From a virus: a DNA stretch of 22,292 nucleotides. The translations under genes and the position numbers were made by a program. Position 1 is the stretch's first letter. Every line of letters starts with the position of its first letter. The stretch covers positions 1 through 22,292 of the IMG/VR virus record IMGVR_UViG_3300028392_000316; one strand, 5' to 3'. Shown one piece after another: positions 6,192 to 18,865 of the stretch. The notes beneath the pieces were generated by a model that was given only the letters and a program-made list of their open reading frames with translations, had not been told where the DNA came from and ran no database searches.

Positions 6192-8105
6192 CTAGACCCC
6201 CAGAATGCTTGGATTCAAACCTTGACGACGCATCAGAACACCAATGTTGTCACGAATCGTGACCGCCAAGTCTTTTTCTTGAACTACCGATCCATGCACA
6301 TGAACCGTCACATGAAGACCCCCACCAAGTCCTCGACCTCGTGACAAAGGCACAACCGCTTCAGGGCCAGCCTCACCAATAAGGGCGATAGTTGGGCGAG
6401 AAACAATGCCACCATCAGCAAGTTTTGGAATCTCGGGAATGTGCGGGATGTTGACGCCAACATTTCCCATGCCAGGAATGTGAATCTTGACTTTGTTTGC
6501 TTTGTCAATGACACCGTTCAACTTCACAATGATGAAGTCAACAATGCCAATCCAAATGTTGAAATAGCCCTTGATGATGTTGCCGACAGAACTAAACGCA
6601 TTGTGGACAAGGTCTGACAAACTGTTAAATACGTTGCTGAACGCATCCTTGATTGACTGAACTTTGTCATGAATCCAATCAGCCGCTTTGTGAATTGCGT
6701 CCTTGATTTTCTCCATGATTTCTTTCCAGTGATTCTTGAGATAAACACCGGCAGCAACTAGCAAACCAATAGGGCCAAGGATGACAAGCAAAGCAATCTT
6801 GATGATCTTGGAATGTTCCTTAATCCAGTCAGAAACCTTGGCGAAAGCCTCTTTGACCTTGTCAGTGATTTCTTTCCAATGGTTCTTCAGGTAGAACCCA
6901 GCGGCAATCAACAAACCAATAGCCAGAATGATGCCACCAGTTGCAAGAATCATGGCAGCATTGGCGGCAATCCATGCAGCAGCCGTTGTCGCAGCTGAAG
7001 CGATGGCAGCGCCGCCTACCACTGCATAGTATTCAATACGAAACGCAACCCAAGAAGCAGCCCTAGCAAGGTCGGCAGCAAAACTTGCAGCAGATGCAAT
7101 CGTTGATTTCACAAGCGTGGAAATGTAAGCACCAATAGCGCCCACAAGTACAGTTCCAATTGCAATAGCCAAAGCCTCAAAAGGCTTCTTATTGTGTGAA
7201 ATGAAAGTGCCAAGCGCTCTCATCTTGTCAATCATTGTGATTAGTTTTGGCACAAGCTTTATGCCAATGTTTTTGAAAATGTCCTCGGTCTGAGCCTTAA
7301 GGACACCCATCTTGCCGCCAAGAGTGTCACTAGCAGCCGAAGCCTGACCACCCATTTTTTTGCTCAAAGCATCCATAATTTTTGTGCCAGCACTAGCAGT
7401 CGTATTGACCTTATGTTGCGCCTCTTGAACTTTGACGTATGCGGTGTGAAGTTTGTCGCTTGAAATCTTGCCTTTGTTGGCAGGATCCTGGCTGGCTTCA
7501 AGTAAAGCCTTGTAAGTAGCCTGAGCCTTGGACAAACCTTCATGCGCTTTAGCCAATTTCGCAGCTCCACCGGCAGCGATAGGAAGGTCAATACCCATAG
7601 CCTTCAATGGTCGAAGTTGACCCTCGGAAGCCTTTGCCACCAAAATTGCAGCAGAAGCCAAGTCGATGTGCTTGTAGCGAGCAAGGTCGGCAGCGATACC
7701 CATGTCGGCCAGAGCCTTCTTTGGGCTACCTAGGGCAGTAGTTAAGTTAGCAAGAGCATCTTCAGTTTGAGCATTGGTAAAGCCAAGGTTTTCCATGCGC
7801 TTGGAAACAGCGTCGATGTGCGGTGACAACTCGTCAAAATTAGCGCCAGCGTTCTTGATGGCTTGCTCAAGTTTGACATGAGAGGTTTCAAACTCATCAG
7901 CCATTTTGACGCTCATGATGCCTACGCCAATAGCAACAGCGCCAAGACCTAGCAACGCACCCTTACCAATGGCAGCAGTTTTGGCAAAGGCTGAACTTGC
8001 CTTGGTTTCAACGGAAGTTAACTCAGCACGAGCCTCACCCATTTTGGCTGAAAACTCACCAATGGACGCACGAAGCTCAACGAATACAGGTGGCAACATT
8101 CCCAC
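6192..8105 (-). CDS. Tape measure protein
   Basis: The tape measure spans the tail lumen and sets tail length. This one has 637 residues, suggesting a tail near 95 nm at about 0.15 nm per residue. The N-terminus (about 5-45) is a helical TP901-type segment. Hydrophobic helices lie near 44-66, 310-332 and 360-403. A 50-residue unit is duplicated at 403-452 and 453-480, with L-K-N-H-W-K-E-I repeated. The ending A-D-G-G-I-V-S-R-P-T-I-A-L-I-G-E-A-G (563-580) followed by P-E-A-V-V-P-L-S-R is a hallmark of tape measure C-termini. GTG 8105 is 10 bases after AAGGAGG; ATG 8099 is the alternative. It directly follows the tail chaperone and gp10-like genes. Confidence 0.95.
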   Translation of the reverse strand: MGMLPPVFVELRASIGEFSAKMGEARAELTSVETKASSAFAKTAAIGKGALLGLGAVAIGVGIMSVKMADEFETSHVKLEQAIKNAGANFDELSPHIDAVSKRMENLGFTNAQTEDALANLTTALGSPKKALADMGIAADLARYKHIDLASAAILVAKASEGQLRPLKAMGIDLPIAAGGAAKLAKAHEGLSKAQATYKALLEASQDPANKGKISSDKLHTAYVKVQEAQHKVNTTASAGTKIMDALSKKMGGQASAASDTLGGKMGVLKAQTEDIFKNIGIKLVPKLITMIDKMRALGTFISHNKKPFEALAIAIGTVLVGAIGAYISTLVKSTIASAASFAADLARAASWVAFRIEYYAVVGGAAIASAATTAAAWIAANAAMILATGGIILAIGLLIAAGFYLKNHWKEITDKVKEAFAKVSDWIKEHSKIIKIALLVILGPIGLLVAAGVYLKNHWKEIMEKIKDAIHKAADWIHDKVQSIKDAFSNVFNSLSDLVHNAFSSVGNIIKGYFNIWIGIVDFIIVKLNGVIDKANKVKIHIPGMGNVGVNIPHIPEIPKLADGGIVSRPTIALIGEAGPEAVVPLSRGRGLGGGLHVTVHVHGSVVQEKDLAVTIRDNIGVLMRRQGLNPSILGV

Positions 8106-8612
8106 TTAAATCAAGCCTCCTTGTTTGTTTACCGCTTTAGCCCAGCCCTTTTCGTAAGCTGCTGGCATCTTTGGCTCTGTGGCCTTCACTGCTGGAGCAA
8201 AGTATGGATACTTGGCTTCTAGCGTGTTTTTCTTAAAGTTGTTTTCTTTCATGTGTTTACCGCCAGCAACACCCACGCCACCAACCCAAACGCCAACGAT
8301 TTTCTTGGGACGACGCACTCCACCCACACCCCGATACAACAAGCCACTAAAACGCCCAGGTGGGCCAGAACGAGGTTCGTTGTGCATCATGTTCATGATT
8401 TTGACTGCGTTTGGGTAGACCTTTGATGTGCCACGTTGATTCCATCGAGGTGCGCCACGAAGGTTTCGACGAACTGCCAATTTCAAAATGCGCTGATTCT
8501 CTTTCAATGCACCAATGGTTGCCTTATCAACTCGCAACTCAGTTTCATGCGTTGCATCCTTGAAGGCTTTCACACCATGAAATACCGCAGAAACTAACTC
8601 AGGCACGATCAC
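8106..8612 (-). CDS. HK97 gp10-like tail completion/minor tail protein
   Basis: This 168-residue basic protein has an N-terminal helical region (L-V-S-A-V-F-H-G-V-K-A-F). It continues with R-G-A-P-R-W-N-Q-R-G (52-61), G-L-L-Y-R-G-V-G-G-V-R-R-P-K and a closing P-Y-F-A-P-A-V-K-A-T-E-P-K. The last pattern recalls the C-terminal helix of gp10-like head-tail joining proteins, in which a P-F-L-x-P-A-x-x-x segment precedes it. The start is GTG 8612 overlapping the stop of the frameshifted chaperone product (GTGA). That overlap is indirect support that the -1 frame is translated. Lying between chaperone and tape measure is unusual for a gp10-type protein, so a tail-specific role is possible. Confidence 0.66.
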   Translation of the reverse strand: MIVPELVSAVFHGVKAFKDATHETELRVDKATIGALKENQRILKLAVRRNLRGAPRWNQRGTSKVYPNAVKIMNMMHNEPRSGPPGRFSGLLYRGVGGVRRPKKIVGVWVGGVGVAGGKHMKENNFKKNTLEAKYPYFAPAVKATEPKMPAAYEKGWAKAVNKQGGLI

Positions 8613-9219
8613 TCACTTTCTTGTTGCTTGTTGTGAACTTTCGTGTAGGTGTCATCTATCGCCAGAAGCCAGTCAAGAGTGGCAGCAGACTCATCTTCAA
8701 GTTGGCTAGGAGTGCAGGACATCAACTTGCAAAGGCGGTAGGTGCGTAGTTGTTCAGGCAGAGAGCCTCTTACGCTTCCGCCCTCAAGCGCTCGCTCTAA
8801 ACGTCTGAGGGCTTGGTGGGGGAATCTTGCTCAGTGCTAAGCGCAAAGGACGGCAACATCTCTGTCACATCTTGCGCAGCAGCAGTCTGAAGGATTTCAT
8901 AATCCGCAGCTGACAAATCAAGAACCCCGTCAAGGGTGACAGTGTCGCTCAATGACCAAGACTCCACGCGAGCCACAATCATCAAATCGTTCAAATTATT
9001 GAAAGTGTCATAGACCGAAACGTCTAGGTTTGCAGCAACCTCGGCAGCCTTAGCTTCATCTGACAAGTCAGAAGGTGCAGACTTCAAAGCATCGCCAGCA
9101 GAACCCTGGCTGATTTCAATCATGACCTTTTCAACAGGTCGACGAAGACGGACTGGAACGGTGGCTGGATCTCGAAGGATGGCCCAGCCACCGTTGCTCA
9201 GTTCAATTTTGTTACTCAT
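8609..9219 (-). CDS. Tail assembly chaperone, long form by -1 frameshift (gpGT-like)
   Basis: Most siphoviruses make a minor elongated chaperone by programmed frameshifting. Here the zero frame (codons GAT TCC CCC ACC) ends at TAG 8799-8797. The -1 frame is open from this point to TGA 8611-8609. The slip site is TTCCCCCA at 8824-8817, where the proline tRNA on CCC can re-pair with CCC one base back. The joined product would have 134 zero-frame residues plus 69 from the -1 frame, 203 in all. The extension starts H-Q-A-L-R-R-L-E-R-A and ends H-N-K-Q-Q-E-S-E, with Y-R-L-C-K-L and L-D-W-L-L-A-I-D inside. The +1 frame stops within 14 codons. The next gene overlaps the -1 stop by GTGA. Confidence 0.78.
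8797..9219 (-). CDS. Tail assembly chaperone, short form (gpG-like)
   Basis: Tail assembly chaperones coat the tape measure before tail tube polymerisation. The zero-frame product has 140 residues, starting M-S-N-K-I-E-L-S-N-G-G. It holds R-P-V-E-K (27-31) and a V-Y-D-T-F-N-N-L-N-D-L segment. Its ending S-T-E-Q-D-S-P-T-K-P-S-D-V is proline-rich, and the codons there include the slippery C run. It lies between the tail tube and tape measure, the invariable place for this gene. A ribosome-binding site (AGGGG) precedes ATG 9219. A longer frameshift product is described separately. Confidence 0.85.
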   Translation of the reverse strand: MSNKIELSNGGWAILRDPATVPVRLRRPVEKVMIEISQGSAGDALKSAPSDLSDEAKAAEVAANLDVSVYDTFNNLNDLMIVARVESWSLSDTVTLDGVLDLSAADYEILQTAAAQDVTEMLPSFALSTEQDSPTKPSDV

Positions 9220-9245: not shown

Positions 9246-10238
9246 TTAGAGAGTGGAATCGGCTGTGATGTAAGTGATAGTCAAAGGCTCGCTCGAACCG
9301 TTGTCGTAAGCGGTAAAACTTACTGCAAGGTCAATCGGGCCAGCACCTGACACGTTTGGAGTATCAGCATCAAACTTGCAAGCAGGAAGCGAGATGTTCA
9401 GGTTCTGGTAGTTCGAGCCTGAAATCAGGTCACCCTTGAGATTCAGTTCAAGCGATGTAGTGGTGTCGGCCATGAATGCAGCCAATGCAACAGTGTCAGA
9501 GAACTCCAGCGTCATCTTGCCTGAAACCTTGCGGAAGCCATTGACAACTTGTTCAGACTTAACGCCAGTACCAACCATGTTGTAGCGGTCGGTCTTGAGT
9601 GCGTTATCCACATTGAGTGTGAAGTCGCGCACGTTAGTGACAGTGTTGCCAGCAATCTTGAACGAAGCGCCAGCAAAGGTGAACAACGACGAAGCCGATG
9701 AAGGAGTGTAAGAAGCAGCCTGTGTTGCCTGAGTTGTATTGAACCCAGCAGCGTCAATGGTGAACTTACCCTTGGCAATGTCACCATTAGCGACACTTAA
9801 TTCAAAGCTAGAAACCTTGCAACCGGTCAGAGTCTTAGTGGTGACAGTGCCACCGTATTGAGGAATCTGAACCTGAGTTGAGAACATGTCACCAGCAGGA
9901 TCACCGAAAGTGAACTGGTACTGATACACGCCACTCGTGACAGTGGTCGGGCTTACCTGATTGCTCATTCCGTAAGCAAGCATCAGGCCAATGCCACGAG
10001 TTGCCAAGTCAATTTCAAAATCGCCAGAAGCATCAGAAGTGACAAGAAGGCGACGCTGTGAACGGGTAACTGTACCGCCACCACGAAGACCCATGCCTTC
10101 TTTTGTGTTCTTGTTATATTTCAAGTTCTCTGAGTTGAACTCGTAAAACTTTGAAGTGGTAATTGAGCCAGGGAACGTGTTGAACGTCGCCTCGGTAAAT
10201 ACGCCTAGACTCGCGCCTACGCCAGCACCAACAGTCAT
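9246..10238 (-). CDS. Major tail (tail tube) protein
   Basis: This subunit polymerises into the tail tube around the tape measure. The 330-residue protein begins G-A-G-V-G-A-S-L-G-V-F-T-E-A-T-F (4-19), followed by K-Y-N-K-N-T-K-E-G-M-G-L and R-R-L-L-V-T-S-D-A-S-G-D-F (62-74), a pattern of phage tail tube proteins. Repeated beta strands fill the rest, for example F-E-L-S-V-A-N-G-D and F-T-L-N-V-D-N. The end I-D-L-A-V-S-F-T-A-Y closes a beta sandwich. AAGGAG lies just before ATG 10238, and it precedes the chaperone gene. A strong ribosome-binding site and its position agree with an abundant virion protein. Confidence 0.9.
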   Translation of the reverse strand: MTVGAGVGASLGVFTEATFNTFPGSITTSKFYEFNSENLKYNKNTKEGMGLRGGGTVTRSQRRLLVTSDASGDFEIDLATRGIGLMLAYGMSNQVSPTTVTSGVYQYQFTFGDPAGDMFSTQVQIPQYGGTVTTKTLTGCKVSSFELSVANGDIAKGKFTIDAAGFNTTQATQAASYTPSSASSLFTFAGASFKIAGNTVTNVRDFTLNVDNALKTDRYNMVGTGVKSEQVVNGFRKVSGKMTLEFSDTVALAAFMADTTTSLELNLKGDLISGSNYQNLNISLPACKFDADTPNVSGAGPIDLAVSFTAYDNGSSEPLTITYITADSTL

Positions 10239-12346: not shown

Positions 12347-14560
12347 CTAGGTTGTTGGAATGTTGTCAAAGATTGTTGTTTCTGCACCAGCAGTGCCAGC
12401 ACGAGCAACAAGTTTCACAGTGTTTGGAAGAGTTCCGTCACGGAAGTAAAGTCCTGCAAGGTTTGCACCTGGGTTTGTGATTGCACTTGTGCATCGTTGC
12501 AAGATTGCCCTTCCGCCACCGCTTGCCTCACCAATCGTGACCAAGCCGTTGAGGGACTGCAAGTTTCCTGCTTGCACGTTTCCTGTCTGGGTGATTCTTG
12601 CAACGGTGTTTCCTGCGCTATCTGAACATGAAAGCAGTGATGTTGCTTGACCGCTTGCACCACGAATAGCCAAGCCAACAGTGCCAGCACTACGAGCCGT
12701 GATTGAAGCCTGTGCAGGAGTGCTGACAGTACCAGCCACAGTCTGAGAACCAGTCGTAGTGTTGGCATACGAAACAGTGAATGTTGAAGTGTTAGACACA
12801 GCCGTGACCACAGCACCAGTTGTGTTGTAGCCAGTAGGTGTCACACCGGCCACCACAATGATGTCACCCACAGCAAGGTTCGTTGCCGAAGTCATTGTTA
12901 GTGTGGCAGTTGTGCCTGTGCCTGAAGCCGCCGTTGTAGCACCACCGACAGATGAGGTGATTGGTGTGGTTGATCCCGAATAGATTTGGGCAACAGCGTT
13001 GCGACCACCGAGGACAGTTGCGGCCTGTGCTTGCCACTGAGTCAAATCGGCAGTTTGGGCTGATACACCTCTAAATGCGGAAACAATAACAGTAGATTGT
13101 CCAGCACCAATAGATAAACGAGCAGGATAAATACCCGACAAGTTACTGCTAATACCACCAAATGCAGTCATCGTCAGGTAAGAAGTTCCTGATGAATCTT
13201 GTAGTTGCAACAGGTCAGCAGTCTGAGAAACAAACCCCTTCAGAATCAACGGCTTTACACCGACAGCCTCAGACGTAATCGTGTGACCGCCAACAGTGAA
13301 AGCGTTAGCCGAAGCAAGTTTGGCAACACCCGACAACTGAGCCAAAGGCAACGTGCCAGAAGTAATGTTCGAAGCATTAGTGGTGTCAGTCGTTGCAGAA
13401 GTTGCAAGACCCGTAATCGAACTGGTCGCAATGCCAGTAATGTTCGAAGCCACAGCCGACAAACTCGGAGTTACCTGCTGCCACATTGTTCCAACAAAAG
13501 TTGAGCTAGAAGTACCAGCAGAAATACGGCGATACGCCACACCAAGATAGTTGACAAGGTCACCCTTGGCGTAAGAAGTAGAGGCAGCCCAATCAGCAAT
13601 AGCCACACCATTCAGGCTTGACTGAGCCAGACCTGCCGTAGCGATCTTTGCATCAGTAACAGTGGCATCAGTTGGGGTTGCCGTCACCGTAGCAGAACCA
13701 CCAAGACTAATAGCCGAACCGTTCACCGTCACCGATGAGTTCACAAGCTTGGCATTAGTCACAGTCGAAGCAGTCAGGTTGCCACCGTCAAGGACAGTCA
13801 GGCCAGTAGTGACACCGGTACCGCCAAGAGTCGTTGACAAGGCAGCCGACAAACTCGCAGCCGTACCCGTAGTGTTCTGGTTCAACGTAGCGACACGGGC
13901 AGCAGCAAGAGTGCCAGAAGTAATGTTTGAAGCGTTAGTGGTGTCAGTGGTTGCTGAGGTGGCAAGGCCAGTCACCTGACTTGAAGCAACAGTGACAGGA
14001 TCAGAACCAGCCACACCATGAGTTGAAGCATGAGCTGTCGGTGTTCGTGCATCGGTTAGGCGTGAGTCAGAAGTGACCACAGCCGTACCGGTAATCTTCG
14101 AAGGACTCAGAGTCGTGGCAATCTTTGCATCTGTAACCGAAGCATCGGTCGGAACTCGAGTGTCTGAAAGTCTAGAGTCAGAAGTGACGACAGCCGTTCC
14201 AGTAATCTTAGAAGGACTTAGAGTCGTAGCAATCTTTGCATCTGTAACCGAAGCATCGGTCGGAACTCGAGTGTCTGAAAGTCTAGAGTCAGCGGTTACG
14301 ACAGCCGTTCCAGTGATTGCTGAAGGACTAATGCCTGACGCTGGTGCTTTGCCTGCCACCGTAGAATCAAGGGCCGTCAGACGGGCTGTAACGGTCGCAG
14401 AGCCACCTTGAGGATTCACCCCTAGTGTGGACTCAATCGCCTCAATAGCGTCGTTAGCGTTGCTGTGTTGGGCAGCATGAGGCACTGTGGCCGAGTCAAG
14501 GGTATCCGTTGCAGTTGGATTGGTGAAAGAATCCAAACCGCCAGGAAAGGCAGACGCCAT
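12347..14560 (-). CDS. Repeat-rich fibre protein, possible head fibre, with chitin-binding-like module
   Basis: The 737-residue protein is rich in Thr, Ser, Ala and Gly, as in trimeric phage fibres. Residues 1-50 (D-S-F-T-N-P-T-A-T-D-T-L and V-P-H-A-A-Q-H-S-N) form a conserved virion-attachment segment known from actinophage virion proteins. Residues 80-170 hold three tandem copies of I-T-G-T-A-V-V-T, then D-S-R-L-x-D-x-R. T-G-L-A-T-S-A-T-T-D-T-T-N-A-S-N occurs twice (197-212 and 383-398). Residues 324-361 (W-A-A-S-T-S-Y-A-K-G-D-L-V-N-Y-L-G-V-A-Y, then W) match a CBM5/12 chitin-binding pattern. Residues 540-612 are a beta module with G-D-I-I-V-V. The C-terminus A-T-I-F-D-N-I-P-like segment may be the tip. 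The gene lies between the head and connector genes. Confidence 0.82.
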   Translation of the reverse strand: MASAFPGGLDSFTNPTATDTLDSATVPHAAQHSNANDAIEAIESTLGVNPQGGSATVTARLTALDSTVAGKAPASGISPSAITGTAVVTADSRLSDTRVPTDASVTDAKIATTLSPSKITGTAVVTSDSRLSDTRVPTDASVTDAKIATTLSPSKITGTAVVTSDSRLTDARTPTAHASTHGVAGSDPVTVASSQVTGLATSATTDTTNASNITSGTLAAARVATLNQNTTGTAASLSAALSTTLGGTGVTTGLTVLDGGNLTASTVTNAKLVNSSVTVNGSAISLGGSATVTATPTDATVTDAKIATAGLAQSSLNGVAIADWAASTSYAKGDLVNYLGVAYRRISAGTSSSTFVGTMWQQVTPSLSAVASNITGIATSSITGLATSATTDTTNASNITSGTLPLAQLSGVAKLASANAFTVGGHTITSEAVGVKPLILKGFVSQTADLLQLQDSSGTSYLTMTAFGGISSNLSGIYPARLSIGAGQSTVIVSAFRGVSAQTADLTQWQAQAATVLGGRNAVAQIYSGSTTPITSSVGGATTAASGTGTTATLTMTSATNLAVGDIIVVAGVTPTGYNTTGAVVTAVSNTSTFTVSYANTTTGSQTVAGTVSTPAQASITARSAGTVGLAIRGASGQATSLLSCSDSAGNTVARITQTGNVQAGNLQSLNGLVTIGEASGGGRAILQRCTSAITNPGANLAGLYFRDGTLPNTVKLVARAGTAGAETTIFDNIPTT
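14118..14292 (-). repeat. 111-bp tandem repeat within the fibre gene
   Basis: The sequence at 14118-14181 is repeated without mismatch at 14229-14292 (64 bp identical), a period of 111 bp or 37 codons. Partial copies extend on both sides. At the protein level the unit includes S-R-L-S-D-T-R-V-P-T-D-A-S-V-T and ends A-V-V-T-S-D. The high base identity, beyond what the protein requires, indicates recent duplication. Confidence 0.9.
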
Positions 14561-14617: not shown

Positions 14618-15307
14618 TTAGTTGTTGTGCGCTTTCCACATTTCGTGCTGGCGTTGATCTAGCCAGAACTGCTTGTGGTGTCCAAGAATTGCGCCAGTGT
14701 GGGCAAAGATGGGGAAACCTAGAGCCGTCGCCTTACGGCAAAATAGCAAGTCCTCGCTGAACCAACGGCCGTCAATAGCGCCATCAAAGAACCAGCACCA
14801 ATCAGAGCCTTGGTTTGGATTCGCCTTTTCACGCATTGCCTCGAGGACAGAACGGTGAACCAGAAGGCAACCAGTTCCAGCACCGTCAATCTGAAAGATT
14901 TCATTCTTCGGATAGTTGTCAATCGGAATCATTGCACCGTCAGCTGACAACTGATAGATCGCAGGGACAGGGCGAAGAGCCTCATTCTCAAAGAATGCTG
15001 CGAAGACTAGACCGGCAACAATCGGACGGTCATCCTTGTGGGCAGTTTCAACTAGAAGGTCGAAAGCCGACAAAGGCAACGACTGGTCAGAGTCAATCAT
15101 CAACAACCAGTCAGCGTGAGAATCGTCCAGAAAGTTCTTCACGATCAAGTTGCGAGTTCGAGCTAGAAGTCCAAGACCCTGCACAGTTTGCAAAGAGTCA
15201 ATCCTTGGTCGACGCTCACGCATCAAACCCACAAGGTCAATAGTCAGTTGAGTGTCAATCGAGCCATCGTGCGGAATAGCGATGCAAACAGTTTCCCGTG
15301 ACCTCAT
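14618..15307 (-). CDS. GT-A fold glycosyltransferase (family 2-like)
   Basis: The enzyme transfers a sugar from a nucleotide-sugar donor. Its 229 residues show V-C-I-A-I-P-H-D-G (7-15), a nucleotide-binding start, then A-R-T-R-N-L-I-V (49-56). The metal-binding D-S-D is at 72-74 in L-M-I-D-S-D-Q. A G-A-G-T-G-C-L-L-V-H-R motif is at 142-152, and S-E-D-L-L-F-C-R-K-A (184-193) supplies the likely catalytic acid pair. H210 and H211 in I-L-G-H-H could be a third metal ligand. Genes of this type lie next to capsid or fibre genes in many actinophages, where some glycosylate virion proteins. Here the neighbours are the major capsid protein and the fibre, the two likely targets. ATG 15307 overlaps the preceding gene (ATGA). 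Confidence 0.88.
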   Translation of the reverse strand: MRSRETVCIAIPHDGSIDTQLTIDLVGLMRERRPRIDSLQTVQGLGLLARTRNLIVKNFLDDSHADWLLMIDSDQSLPLSAFDLLVETAHKDDRPIVAGLVFAAFFENEALRPVPAIYQLSADGAMIPIDNYPKNEIFQIDGAGTGCLLVHRSVLEAMREKANPNQGSDWCWFFDGAIDGRWFSEDLLFCRKATALGFPIFAHTGAILGHHKQFWLDQRQHEMWKAHNN

Positions 15308-16910: not shown

Positions 16911-16961
16911 GTCGCCGAGGCAGAAGCGTCGGGGACATCTCTAAGGGATTGCCCCTAGAGA
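16911..16961 (-). terminator. Two stem-loops between the capsid protease and major capsid genes
   Basis: The first (16961-16938) has ten pairs, UCUCUAGGGG with CCCUUAGAGA, loop CAAU, one G-U. It contains the protease stop codon TAG. The second (16936-16911) pairs GUCCCCGA with UCGGCGAC around the loop with one mismatch. Together they may reduce read-through or cut the transcript so that capsid mRNA is made or kept separately. No U tract is seen. Confidence 0.5.
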
Positions 16962-18865
16962 GAATCAAGTTTGAACTTCAGCGCAACTTTACGCTTGCGA
17001 AGTTCGAGGTCATCTTCGACAGAATCTTCAGAACGCATTCCGACAGATGAAGCGTCATAGGCTGGCCACGTCACAACCGAAACCTCAAACAGGTTCAAGT
17101 CGGTTAGTGTGCGAAGACCTTCCTCGCGAGTGTCACCTCCAGGAGCAACACTGAAAGCGAATGACATCTTGTCAACGTCGCCACGAGTAAGAGCCGAAGC
17201 CAACTCGGCAGCGCGAGGATTCGAAGGGTCAAGCGTTGCTTCCATGCGAAGACCGACATTGTCCTCAGATAGAACCAACGTGCCACCCTGAGTCGAAGCC
17301 AACGGCAACTGGTCGGTGTCATGGTTGACAAGTAGGAACACTGGGTCGCCAGACTTCAATGATCGAGTGAAAGCGCCAGGCGCAATCATCTCGCGGAAGT
17401 TTAGACCGGTTGCTTCCTTGTTGAACTGTGCAGCATAACCACCAATTCGAAGTGAACCATCATCGGTAGCAACAGCACGAACCTCAGCCTCAAAGGTTAG
17501 ACGTTCAGCGGAAGCAATAGCAGACTTGCGTTCTTCAATCATTAGACCCTCACTAAGTTCAGCGGAGCGAGGCTCGAAAGGCACAACCAAGGTTGGATCT
17601 TCGAACTGAGTCGCCATCTTGTCGTAATAGTCAGAAACCTTCGTCTTGATAGTGGCAATGTCCTCTTCAGGAATGTCCACGCCACCACGAGCGCCATTCA
17701 AGACACCAGCCACAGCAAAGATTCCACGAGGAATAGCAGTCAAAGTTCCGCCAATAATGTCAGCGAACTGCAACTTGTAGCCGCCAAACTGACCCTTCTT
17801 GTCAGGGTTGACATAGAAGAAGGCTTGAGCGTACTTGTTCCAATCGCCATTAGCCCAATCACGAACACGACCCTCAGCAGCTGAAGATTCCCACTTGTAG
17901 TCGCGAGAGCCAATCGGCAAATCTGTTGAGCCTGAAGCAGAGCGCATACCGTCGATTGACTGCATCATGTGGTCAGCAATAGTAGGCTCATCGCCCATGT
18001 CATCCTCATCCACACCCTGAGCATCCAATGGGTCAGGTGAAGGCTGAGTAACTTCCTCGCCAAGCGAAGCGGTCAGTTGCCACTTGTAGAACTGCTGGTC
18101 GTCAATAGCGCCAGCAATGAAATTGGCGATTCCCTGCTGGTTGAAAGCGACAGCGCAATCAAACACATCAGCAAGTTCATCCAAGAACACATCGTTGGCA
18201 GTCAGAAGGTCACGAGCAAGGCTCATAGGATCTTGACCGGGCTTTGCATCCTGCAAGTATCCAAGCATTGCGAACTCTGCAAGGTGGAACGGAGCAACTG
18301 AACCAATCTTGCGAAGGTTCTCAGCAATCGGGTCAATGAGTTCGTAGGCGGTTTCATAAATCTTCTGGAACAGCTTGTGGTATTCGCTGAAGTCAGCGCC
18401 CTTCACGTTCCAATGTGCGCCATGAGCGCGGAAGTAAAACTGAACCGCAGTTCCAAGCAACTCGCTCAACTCTTCGACTAGGTCGGGAGTTGACTCCGAA
18501 TCTCTTTTCTCCATTGTTTCTCCAATGATAAGTGCTGAACGTGCAGCCATTTTGTCGCGAATAGAACGTGACCATGCGAACCCTGCATCCCCACCCCAAG
18601 CAGACCAAGCCACGCGGCCAGCACTTGGGAAACCATCTTCGCCAGAATTGAAGCCAGTTGCCTTCTTGTCGACCTCATGACGTGCAAAGAATGAATACAT
18701 TCTCAGCACAGTTTCGAGCGACATACGCCTTCCAGCCGCCAAATCGCTCGCACGCTTGCGACCGGTGTCAGTGAAGCCTGAGCCAGCCTTGCCGTCAGCA
18801 ATCCAGCCAAGAGCCTTCTGAGCCTCGTCACGAACAGTCTGTGGTGGTCGGAAAGTATCAGCCAT
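16955..18865 (-). CDS. Multidomain prohead protease with internal Dps/ferritin-like domain
   Basis: The C-terminal part (about 455-612) is an HK97-type prohead serine protease that cuts the capsid delta domain. The likely catalytic triad is H515 (L-V-N-H-D), S568 (K-M-S-F-A-F) and E594 (L-F-E-V-S), with M-I-A-P-G-A-F (493-499) and W-P-A-Y (600-603). Residues 320-420 are a conserved phage region (R-V-R-D-W-A, then G-Y-K-L-Q-F-A-D-I, A-I-P-R-G-I-F-A, A-R-G-G-V-D-I-P-E). Residues 1-108 carry another (R-H-E-V-D-K, P-S-A-G-R-V-A-W, W-G-G-D-A-G). Residues about 128-268 look like a Dps subunit, with H151 (A-H-W-N-V-K-G), H163, D178 and E182 spaced as the ferroxidase ligands of that family. The total of 636 residues is about three times a usual protease. 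ATG 18865 overlaps the portal stop (TAATG). Confidence 0.88.
   Translation of the reverse strand: MADTFRPPQTVRDEAQKALGWIADGKAGSGFTDTGRKRASDLAAGRRMSLETVLRMYSFFARHEVDKKATGFNSGEDGFPSAGRVAWSAWGGDAGFAWSRSIRDKMAARSALIIGETMEKRDSESTPDLVEELSELLGTAVQFYFRAHGAHWNVKGADFSEYHKLFQKIYETAYELIDPIAENLRKIGSVAPFHLAEFAMLGYLQDAKPGQDPMSLARDLLTANDVFLDELADVFDCAVAFNQQGIANFIAGAIDDQQFYKWQLTASLGEEVTQPSPDPLDAQGVDEDDMGDEPTIADHMMQSIDGMRSASGSTDLPIGSRDYKWESSAAEGRVRDWANGDWNKYAQAFFYVNPDKKGQFGGYKLQFADIIGGTLTAIPRGIFAVAGVLNGARGGVDIPEEDIATIKTKVSDYYDKMATQFEDPTLVVPFEPRSAELSEGLMIEERKSAIASAERLTFEAEVRAVATDDGSLRIGGYAAQFNKEATGLNFREMIAPGAFTRSLKSGDPVFLLVNHDTDQLPLASTQGGTLVLSEDNVGLRMEATLDPSNPRAAELASALTRGDVDKMSFAFSVAPGGDTREEGLRTLTDLNLFEVSVVTWPAYDASSVGMRSEDSVEDDLELRKRKVALKFKLDSL

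Follow-up and report, generated by a model that had tools for sequence, protein, structure and literature searches.

The virus analysed here, whose 22,292 nucleotides of DNA are referred to as the window, very probably produces a helper protein for tail building in two versions. Judging from its sequence, a programmed −1 ribosomal frameshift signal is highly likely to be present in its tail assembly chaperone gene, which is of the lambda G/GT type. The two reading frames, the slip site, the spacer, and the hairpin of this signal are all present, and they are conserved. The first frame, G (8797-9219, on the minus strand, as are all features below), encodes the 140-aa short form of the chaperone and ends at the zero-frame stop TAG (8799-8797). 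In the −1 frame, an ORF runs from after a TGA at 8833-8831, which lies 9 nt 5′ of the site and is the upstream limit of the possible slip region, across TTCCCCCAC (8824-8816), to a second TGA at 8611-8609. It counts 71 codons from 8824 and 69 following a slip on CCC, and this latter part, the T segment (8609-8818), would be read only after the slip. The slip site T_TCC_CCC (8818-8824) has a core tetramer C_CCC (8821-8818) and a −1 codon CCC (8821-8819), and belongs to GAT TCC CCC ACC (8826-8815), the sole slippery stretch seen by eye in the allowed interval. Slipping by −1 on CCC makes the following codons CAC CAA GCC, the 69 residues being counted from the histidine, and translation of both frames predicts a 203-aa GT fusion (8609-9219) with D-S-P-H-Q at the junction. 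The T stop and the GTG with which the downstream gene begins (from 8612) overlap in the sequence GTGA. An earlier, sequence-only reading had reported the zero-frame stop at 8797, the 69 codons of the −1 frame, and the GTGA overlap, and all three are confirmed on the minus strand. Because the earliest start codon of the −1 ORF is codon 33 (numbering from 0), with ATG and TTG codons from there on, T cannot be produced whole from a start of its own.

The surrounding genes follow a lambda-type layout, in which a short ORF is followed by a −1 ORF, with the tail tube gene on one side and the tape measure gene on the other. Upstream of G is the tail tube protein gene (9246-10238; PF18906 Phage_tube_2, E 2.9e-31), while T is followed by a 168-aa gene with no Pfam or PHROG match (8106-8612), whose GTG start overlaps the T stop, and then by the tape measure protein gene (6192-8105; phrog_991, E 4.4e-32). 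A conserved frameshift of tail assembly chaperones, gpG/gpGT in phage lambda, was reportedly described by Xu and co-workers in 2004. As in lambda, the window has a pair of overlapping ORFs in the interval from tail tube to tape measure, the second in the −1 frame and startless, with the slip site near the end of the first. It differs in the use of a C_CCC tetramer and hairpin in place of an XXXYYYZ heptamer, and in the one extra gene that separates T from the tape measure. Other genes of the window have features of their own. The prohead protease gene (636 aa, 16955-18865) encodes, at residues 131-269, a ferritin/Dps-like domain (PF00210, E 1.9e-11; phrog_3636) with Peptidase_S78 C-terminal to it at residues 460-612. 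A probable tail fibre (737 aa, 12347-14560) carries repeats of the form S-P-S-K-I-T-G-T-A-V-V and a CBM_5_12 match just under the cut-off, and a possible glycosyltransferase-like gene (14618-15307; weak Anp1 match, below the cut-off) lies amid the capsid and tail genes.

The identity of the gene product is seen most directly in T, which on its own matches PHROG 9001 (phrog_9001), annotated as tail assembly chaperone (E 1.2e-6). G matched neither Pfam nor PHROG, and the G proteins of five relatives gave weak matches only. When the AlphaFold model of G (pLDDT 80.5) was compared with a viral structure library, the first functionally named match was a Mycobacterium phage tail assembly chaperone, weak and at rank 4 (E 8e-3). 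The 50 viral matches listed include 11 annotated as tail assembly chaperones (all with E >0.001) and 2 as baseplate proteins, and most carry no functional name. A fold search of the same model against the PDB gave nothing significant, with the HK97 chaperone third at E 2.2. G is thus called a chaperone mainly from its position and from T. Among named phages, the relatives of the window's fusion are seven Bacillus/Geobacillus records, the best at E 2e-4 and 36% identity; the T domains of two relatives found none at E 0.01.

A first protein search returned 38 IMG/VR loci, in 36 of which the close-relative junction was read. The site is TTCCCCC in 31 of these, TTCCCCT in 3, ATCCCCC in 1, and GTCCCCG in 1. 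Across the window and these 36 loci (37/37 junctions) the zero-frame stop lies exactly 25 nt past the first T of the site, and the T frame contains no start codon earlier than T codon 17. The other two of the 38 loci, the distant L041 and L042, have A_AAA_AAC at the junction. Among 25 distinct close sequences, from which the incomplete L020 was left out for codon counts, the serine codon is TCC in 25/25 and the proline codon is CCC in 23, CCT in 1, and CCG in 1, while the four other proline columns (122, 130, 154, and 170, taken from alignment position 110 onward) use CCC in just 3/94 cases. The codon after CCC differs among relatives (ACC, ATC, ACG, GGT, TCC, or TTC), and His134 and Arg142, inside the signal region, vary freely. 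In fixed windows, synonymous variation amounts to 0.45, 0.34, and 0.40 of the expected value between positions 126 and 146 and to 0.92 directly afterwards; the constraint stops at the 3′ arm of the hairpin described below. Low values (0.50 and 0.51) also occur in two windows at the beginning of G, so low synonymous variation is not unique to the signal. Within the 3′ arm, GCG and CTT occur in 25/25 sequences and GAG in all 23 glutamate codons (A-L-E); since these codons lie past the zero-frame stop, double coding does not account for their fixation. T_TCC_CCC does not fit the X_XXZ_ZZN pattern, and inspection by eye of the interval between TGA 8833 and TAG 8797 found no other such heptamer.

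A wider set was assembled by protein searches that used no DNA motif. With the window included and same-contig repeats removed, it comprises at least 184 loci and at least 132 distinct junctions. One of these searches supplied 80 of 103 relatives, and the A3 and A4 samples are not fully motif-independent, because the query proteins came from motif-bearing loci. The 132 leave out L093-L096 and L041-L042, which are distant and were read by eye only; L002-L004 and other loci that repeat contigs present under different numbers are also outside the counts. C_CCY without an upstream CCCAAA is found at 98 of the 132 junctions, C_CCG at 1, C_CCA_AAA upstream at 31, and neither at 1 (L404). Some members carry both motifs: 8 of the 31 C_CCA_AAA junctions also retain C_CCY, and C_CCY occurs, beyond the 98, in 9 junctions with an upstream CCCAAA. 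L034, which combines CCCAAAT, C_CCC, and a hairpin, was counted with the C_CCN class, making 100, and L404 was placed in no class. The base preceding the site is T in 65 of the 98 C_CCY junctions, G in 26, C in 4, and A in 3; the preceding codon is TCC in 94, AGC in 3, and ACC in 1; and the proline codon is CCT in 75 and CCC in 23. Two members stand out individually. L039 (slip at 2646) has G_TCC_CCG with an intact hairpin and is the sole C_CCR member of the C_CCN class, its C_CCG being a poor tetramer under the E. coli ranking. In L081 (slip at 2001), T_TCC_CCT is followed by TCC TAG, which puts the zero-frame stop just 10 nt past the start of the site.

By comparison of these sequences, the conserved element is C_CCY, that is, a proline codon CCC or CCU after C, usually following UCC, and not a run of five C. 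The five-C run, which the sequence-only reading had taken as the slip element, was rejected as the conserved element, given that many relatives have four C and some, namely L295, L306, and L307, have a run of three only, all with the split frames kept. The frames thus remain split in C4, C3, and C_CCA_AAA relatives alike, an outcome that the same reading had set against its own proposal. Because the slip site is kept where the C run is not, this outcome strengthens the frameshift reading.

Downstream of the slip site is a stem-loop that the sequence-only reading had overlooked. It is predicted to begin after a 6-nt spacer, ACCAAG (8812-8817), and spans 8781-8811, with a 5′ arm at 8811-8800, a loop at 8799-8793 that includes the stop TAG, and a 3′ arm at 8792-8781; the stem contains one internal mismatch. 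The folding z of the window's hairpin is −2.4, and in the relatives the zero-frame stop usually falls within the loop region. In the close clade, the stem pairs in 86.5% of cells, compared with at most 58.7% when it is slid, and position 21-37 is unpaired in 15/21. Covariation within this clade gave no signal, with 0 pairs altered on both sides and at least 475 of 500 shuffles as good on every measure. Farther afield, the predicted stem starts within 2 nt of +13 in 60/60 distinct cassettes, including one from a Kitasatospora genome, and for 95% of the 98 C_CCY junctions the predicted fold has the first stem base (+6 nt) paired.

Among 39 cluster representatives, 0/5000 shuffles of the 3′ arms performed as well as the real stems. 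Pair 19-39 is A-U in 14 of these representatives, C-G in 7, U-A in 6, G-U in 1, and unpaired in 11, and again 0/5000 shuffles were as good. It is the only one of the 12 pairs to signal pairing alone; the variable pairs 21-37, 24-34, and 25-33 gave p values of 0.31-0.50. Changes at pair 19-39 are largely silent, because column 39 mostly falls on the third position of leucine codons, and a phylogeny-aware test counted 4.9 independent pairs changing in the same sense and 0.2 in the opposite sense, which is borderline (p 0.03-0.375). The position of the stem is kept where its sequence varies in 20 rows whose stems start with GCCT at the same position, 18 of which are closed by CGGAGGC or CGGGGGC. 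L329 has a wholly different stem, formed by GTCTAAAGC with GCTTTGGAC. Taken on sequence and predicted folding, the stem 6 nt downstream is a candidate stimulatory structure for the C_CCY signal.

The two junction classes differ in what follows the slip site. In the C_CCN class (100 junctions), the 37 nt from +13 have a mean MFE of −16.9 and a median z of −2.66, with 73% at or below −2, whereas in the C_CCA_AAA class (31 junctions) the mean MFE is −6.4 and the median z −0.12, with 3% at or below −2. The GC contents are 0.65 and 0.48, respectively, and z was computed against shuffles of the same sequence. About 27% of the C_CCN junctions miss a z of −2, and three of the 100 exceed −1 (L292, L317, and L351). 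The same holds within the A4 family, where z ranges from −5.8 to −2.4 across 13 C_CCY junctions (median −4.03) and from −2.0 to 1.7 across 29 heptamer junctions (median −0.04; Mann-Whitney p 3e-7). Also, the zero-frame stop of this family lies at +25 in 13/13 C_CCY junctions, while in the 29 heptamer junctions it lies at +16 (17), +25 (8), +34 (2), or +37 (2). The C_CCA_AAA loci are L377-L411, except L384 and L404, together with L087-L092. A rapidly built tree of the G and T proteins, which has long branches, support values from a short search, and no inferred root, and from which the short L338 was left out, requires two switches between junction types, both forced by starred branches. L087 and L088 fall inside a C_CCY clade and therefore suggest a change from C_CCY to the heptamer at that point.

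A DNA pattern for the cassette was also run against viral contigs and against bacterial and archaeal genomes. In viral contigs it hit 87 stretches; of the 80 loci examined, a regex identified 63 as chaperone junctions and inspection by eye another 15 (78 in all), and the T domains of many of these differ greatly. Since the pattern fixes the 5′ arm and the sample is hence biased, class counts were taken from the protein-based loci. The bacterial and archaeal genomes yielded 93 stretches, of which 80 loci were examined; 2 are chaperone junctions, from two Kitasatospora genomes, and 16 others meet the length filters and appear unrelated by eye. A first protein scan of genomes had found no relative. 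The nearest relative of the window's terminase is that of Pontimonas phage phiPsal1 (49.7%), and this, together with the cassette in two Kitasatospora genomes, makes actinobacterial hosts likely for the phages that carry the cassette. The junction of phiPsal1 itself is A_AAA_AAA, and that of GBK1 is A_AAA_AAG.

A −1 frameshift in the tail chaperone, as the sequence-only reading had proposed, is supported by the phrog_9001 match, by gene position, and by the conservation of the split frames, the site, and the hairpin. From these we infer the slippage itself, its rate, which tRNAs would move, and the role of GT. Most ribosomes would translate G as far as the TAG, and a minority, delayed by the stem-loop 6 nt ahead, would slip back one base, the tRNA-Pro shifting from CCC (8820-8818) to CCC (8821-8819). 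The slipped ribosomes would then continue with CAC CAA and yield the GT fusion. If lambda is a guide, this fusion would link the tape measure and tail tube proteins. On the C_CCY tetramer, the A site is proposed to hold Pro at the moment of the slip, and the P site Ser-UCC; Pro is placed in the A site because the 6-nt spacer then results. UCC and CCC are most likely the P- and A-site codons at the slip. The sequence-only reading had paired perfect re-pairing of the proline tRNA on CCC, which fits the wider set, with ACC to CAC as the second slip codon, which does not stand: ACC is the next codon, is variable among relatives, and would be read as CAC with no need of re-pairing. Where the preceding base is U, as in the window, the Ser tRNA could partly re-pair on UUC, and the G_TCC, AGC, and ACC relatives suggest that such P-site re-pairing would not be required.

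Two of the alternatives are variants within this same reading, and their odds overlap. In one, two tRNAs would slip together on the heptamer T_TCC_CCC, with tRNA-Ser moving from UCC to UUC (G-U at the mid-position) along with tRNA-Pro, and the T would be essential. T does precede TCC in 23 of the 25 distinct close sequences, window included, where it is the third base of a varying codon, and by eye T_TCC_CCC is the sole plausible heptamer from the −1 TGA to the stop. The wider set tells against it, however, given that a third of the C_CCY junctions have G, C, or A in this position and that AGC and ACC re-pair poorly. Because such members exist, the P-site partner is helpful at most, and T_TCC_CCC as an obligatory heptamer is weakened; it is retained as a rival that we hold to be doubtful. 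In the other variant, which is near the wording of the sequence-only reading, the Pro tRNA alone would slip once translocation has brought it into the P site, with the A site empty or awaiting the next codon. This agrees with the perfect re-pairing of CCC on CCC and with the variable following codon, but it would leave just 3 nt from the A-site codon to the stem, compared with 6 nt with Pro in the A site, and the rule given for E. coli in the consulted part of PMC4066793 favours A-site re-pairing. We consider it unlikely.

The remaining alternatives dispense with ribosomal slippage. The five-C run of the window would allow transcriptional slippage, producing mRNAs one base longer or shorter, but most runs in the wider set have four C (CCT in 75/98), and those of the three loci mentioned above have just three. 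Furthermore, the slippage runs named in the available text of PMC5009743 are longer (9 T) or context-dependent (T5C5), and a hairpin at fixed spacing and a switch to C_CCA_AAA better suit a ribosomal slip, which leaves the transcriptional explanation highly improbable. That no frameshift occurs, T being an independent gene that starts at a codon of its own or the split reflecting a sequencing error or a decayed gene, is hardly credible. The ATG and TTG codons within T, from codon 33 onward in the window, could serve such a gene, but a start earlier than codon 17 was found in 0/37 junctions, the codons at the site are constrained, and the same split recurs across the relatives' junctions.

The preferred reading, a ribosomal slip of Pro on C_CCY ahead of a hairpin, has parallels in several known systems. 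In E. coli, Z_ZZN tetramers rank in the order A_AAG, U_UUY, C_CCY, A_AAA, with C_CCY one of six that are active, and they require a strong stimulator (Sharma et al., 2014, PMC4066793). The C_CCY rate there is low (PMC4066793), and it may not hold for the window's host. The excerpted text reports five tetramers in IS elements, including A_AAG, U_UUY, and A_AAA (PMC4066793). The IS motifs resemble the window in that C_CCY is active, needs a downstream stimulator, and would involve cognate re-pairing of the A-site tRNA; they differ in that C_CCY was tested there artificially, with the IS3 pseudoknot (PMC4066793). V_VVA_AAR heptamers are among the most efficient, C_CCA_AAG reaching 54% with the IS3 pseudoknot (PMC4066793), a figure that offers a comparison of class and not of measured value, because the relatives have C_CCA_AAA and the 54% includes the stimulator. 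The pattern of a weak tetramer with a hairpin and a strong heptamer without one fits this E. coli ranking. It is conceivable, and close to an even matter in our judgement, that the tail chaperones of a broad and largely uncultured phage group alternate between two balanced modes of frameshifting, weak C_CCY with a hairpin and strong C_CCA_AAA without.

Among cultured phages, the phiC31-like Streptomyces phages come close at the slip site. Sixteen records were listed, some of them duplicates, and in 9/9 inspected C_CCT is followed by ACCG (GGA CCC TAC CG), the −1 frame reading P-Y-R as it does in soil relatives. Unlike in the window's group, the preceding codon is GAC rather than UCC, the CCCTC stem 6 nt downstream is absent, and the local folds differ; tblastn with the window and two relatives gave no match to the phiC31-like T domains. 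The gene is annotated as joined in phiC31, whose gp42 is labelled 'ribosomal slippage', and likewise in Lilbooboo and Vash. A joined gene is unannotated in 6/9, with the two parts separate in Sebastisaurus, Euratis, Shawty, TG1, and Heather and gp41 only in phi-BT1. The motifs 'twofive' and 'twofour' of PRFect, which as judged by name are XXYYYYY and XXYYYY, would accommodate TTCCCCC and TTCCCCT, and came from inspection of annotated actinophage frameshifts, according to the sections seen (PMC10885494). They differ from the present signal in that the wider set suggests the two T's to be dispensable and a hairpin to accompany the site. A literature search of open-licence papers turned up no paper in which a tail chaperone cassette of the C_CCY kind was recognisably described.

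The usual marker of a tail chaperone frameshift is an XXXYYYZ heptamer. The lambda-type G/GT frameshift is a known system, and what sets the present group apart is its unusual signal, C_CCY with a hairpin, together with the replacement of one by the other between this signal and a strong heptamer. A search for XXXYYYZ alone would miss a group of phages that seem to rely on a proline tetramer and a hairpin for their GT fusion. Also, this set of relatives allows slip strength to be compared with stimulator strength while the protein product stays roughly constant. If the ratio of GT to G proved equal in both junction types, they would provide natural evidence that selection holds this ratio, trading the strength of the slip site against that of the stimulator.
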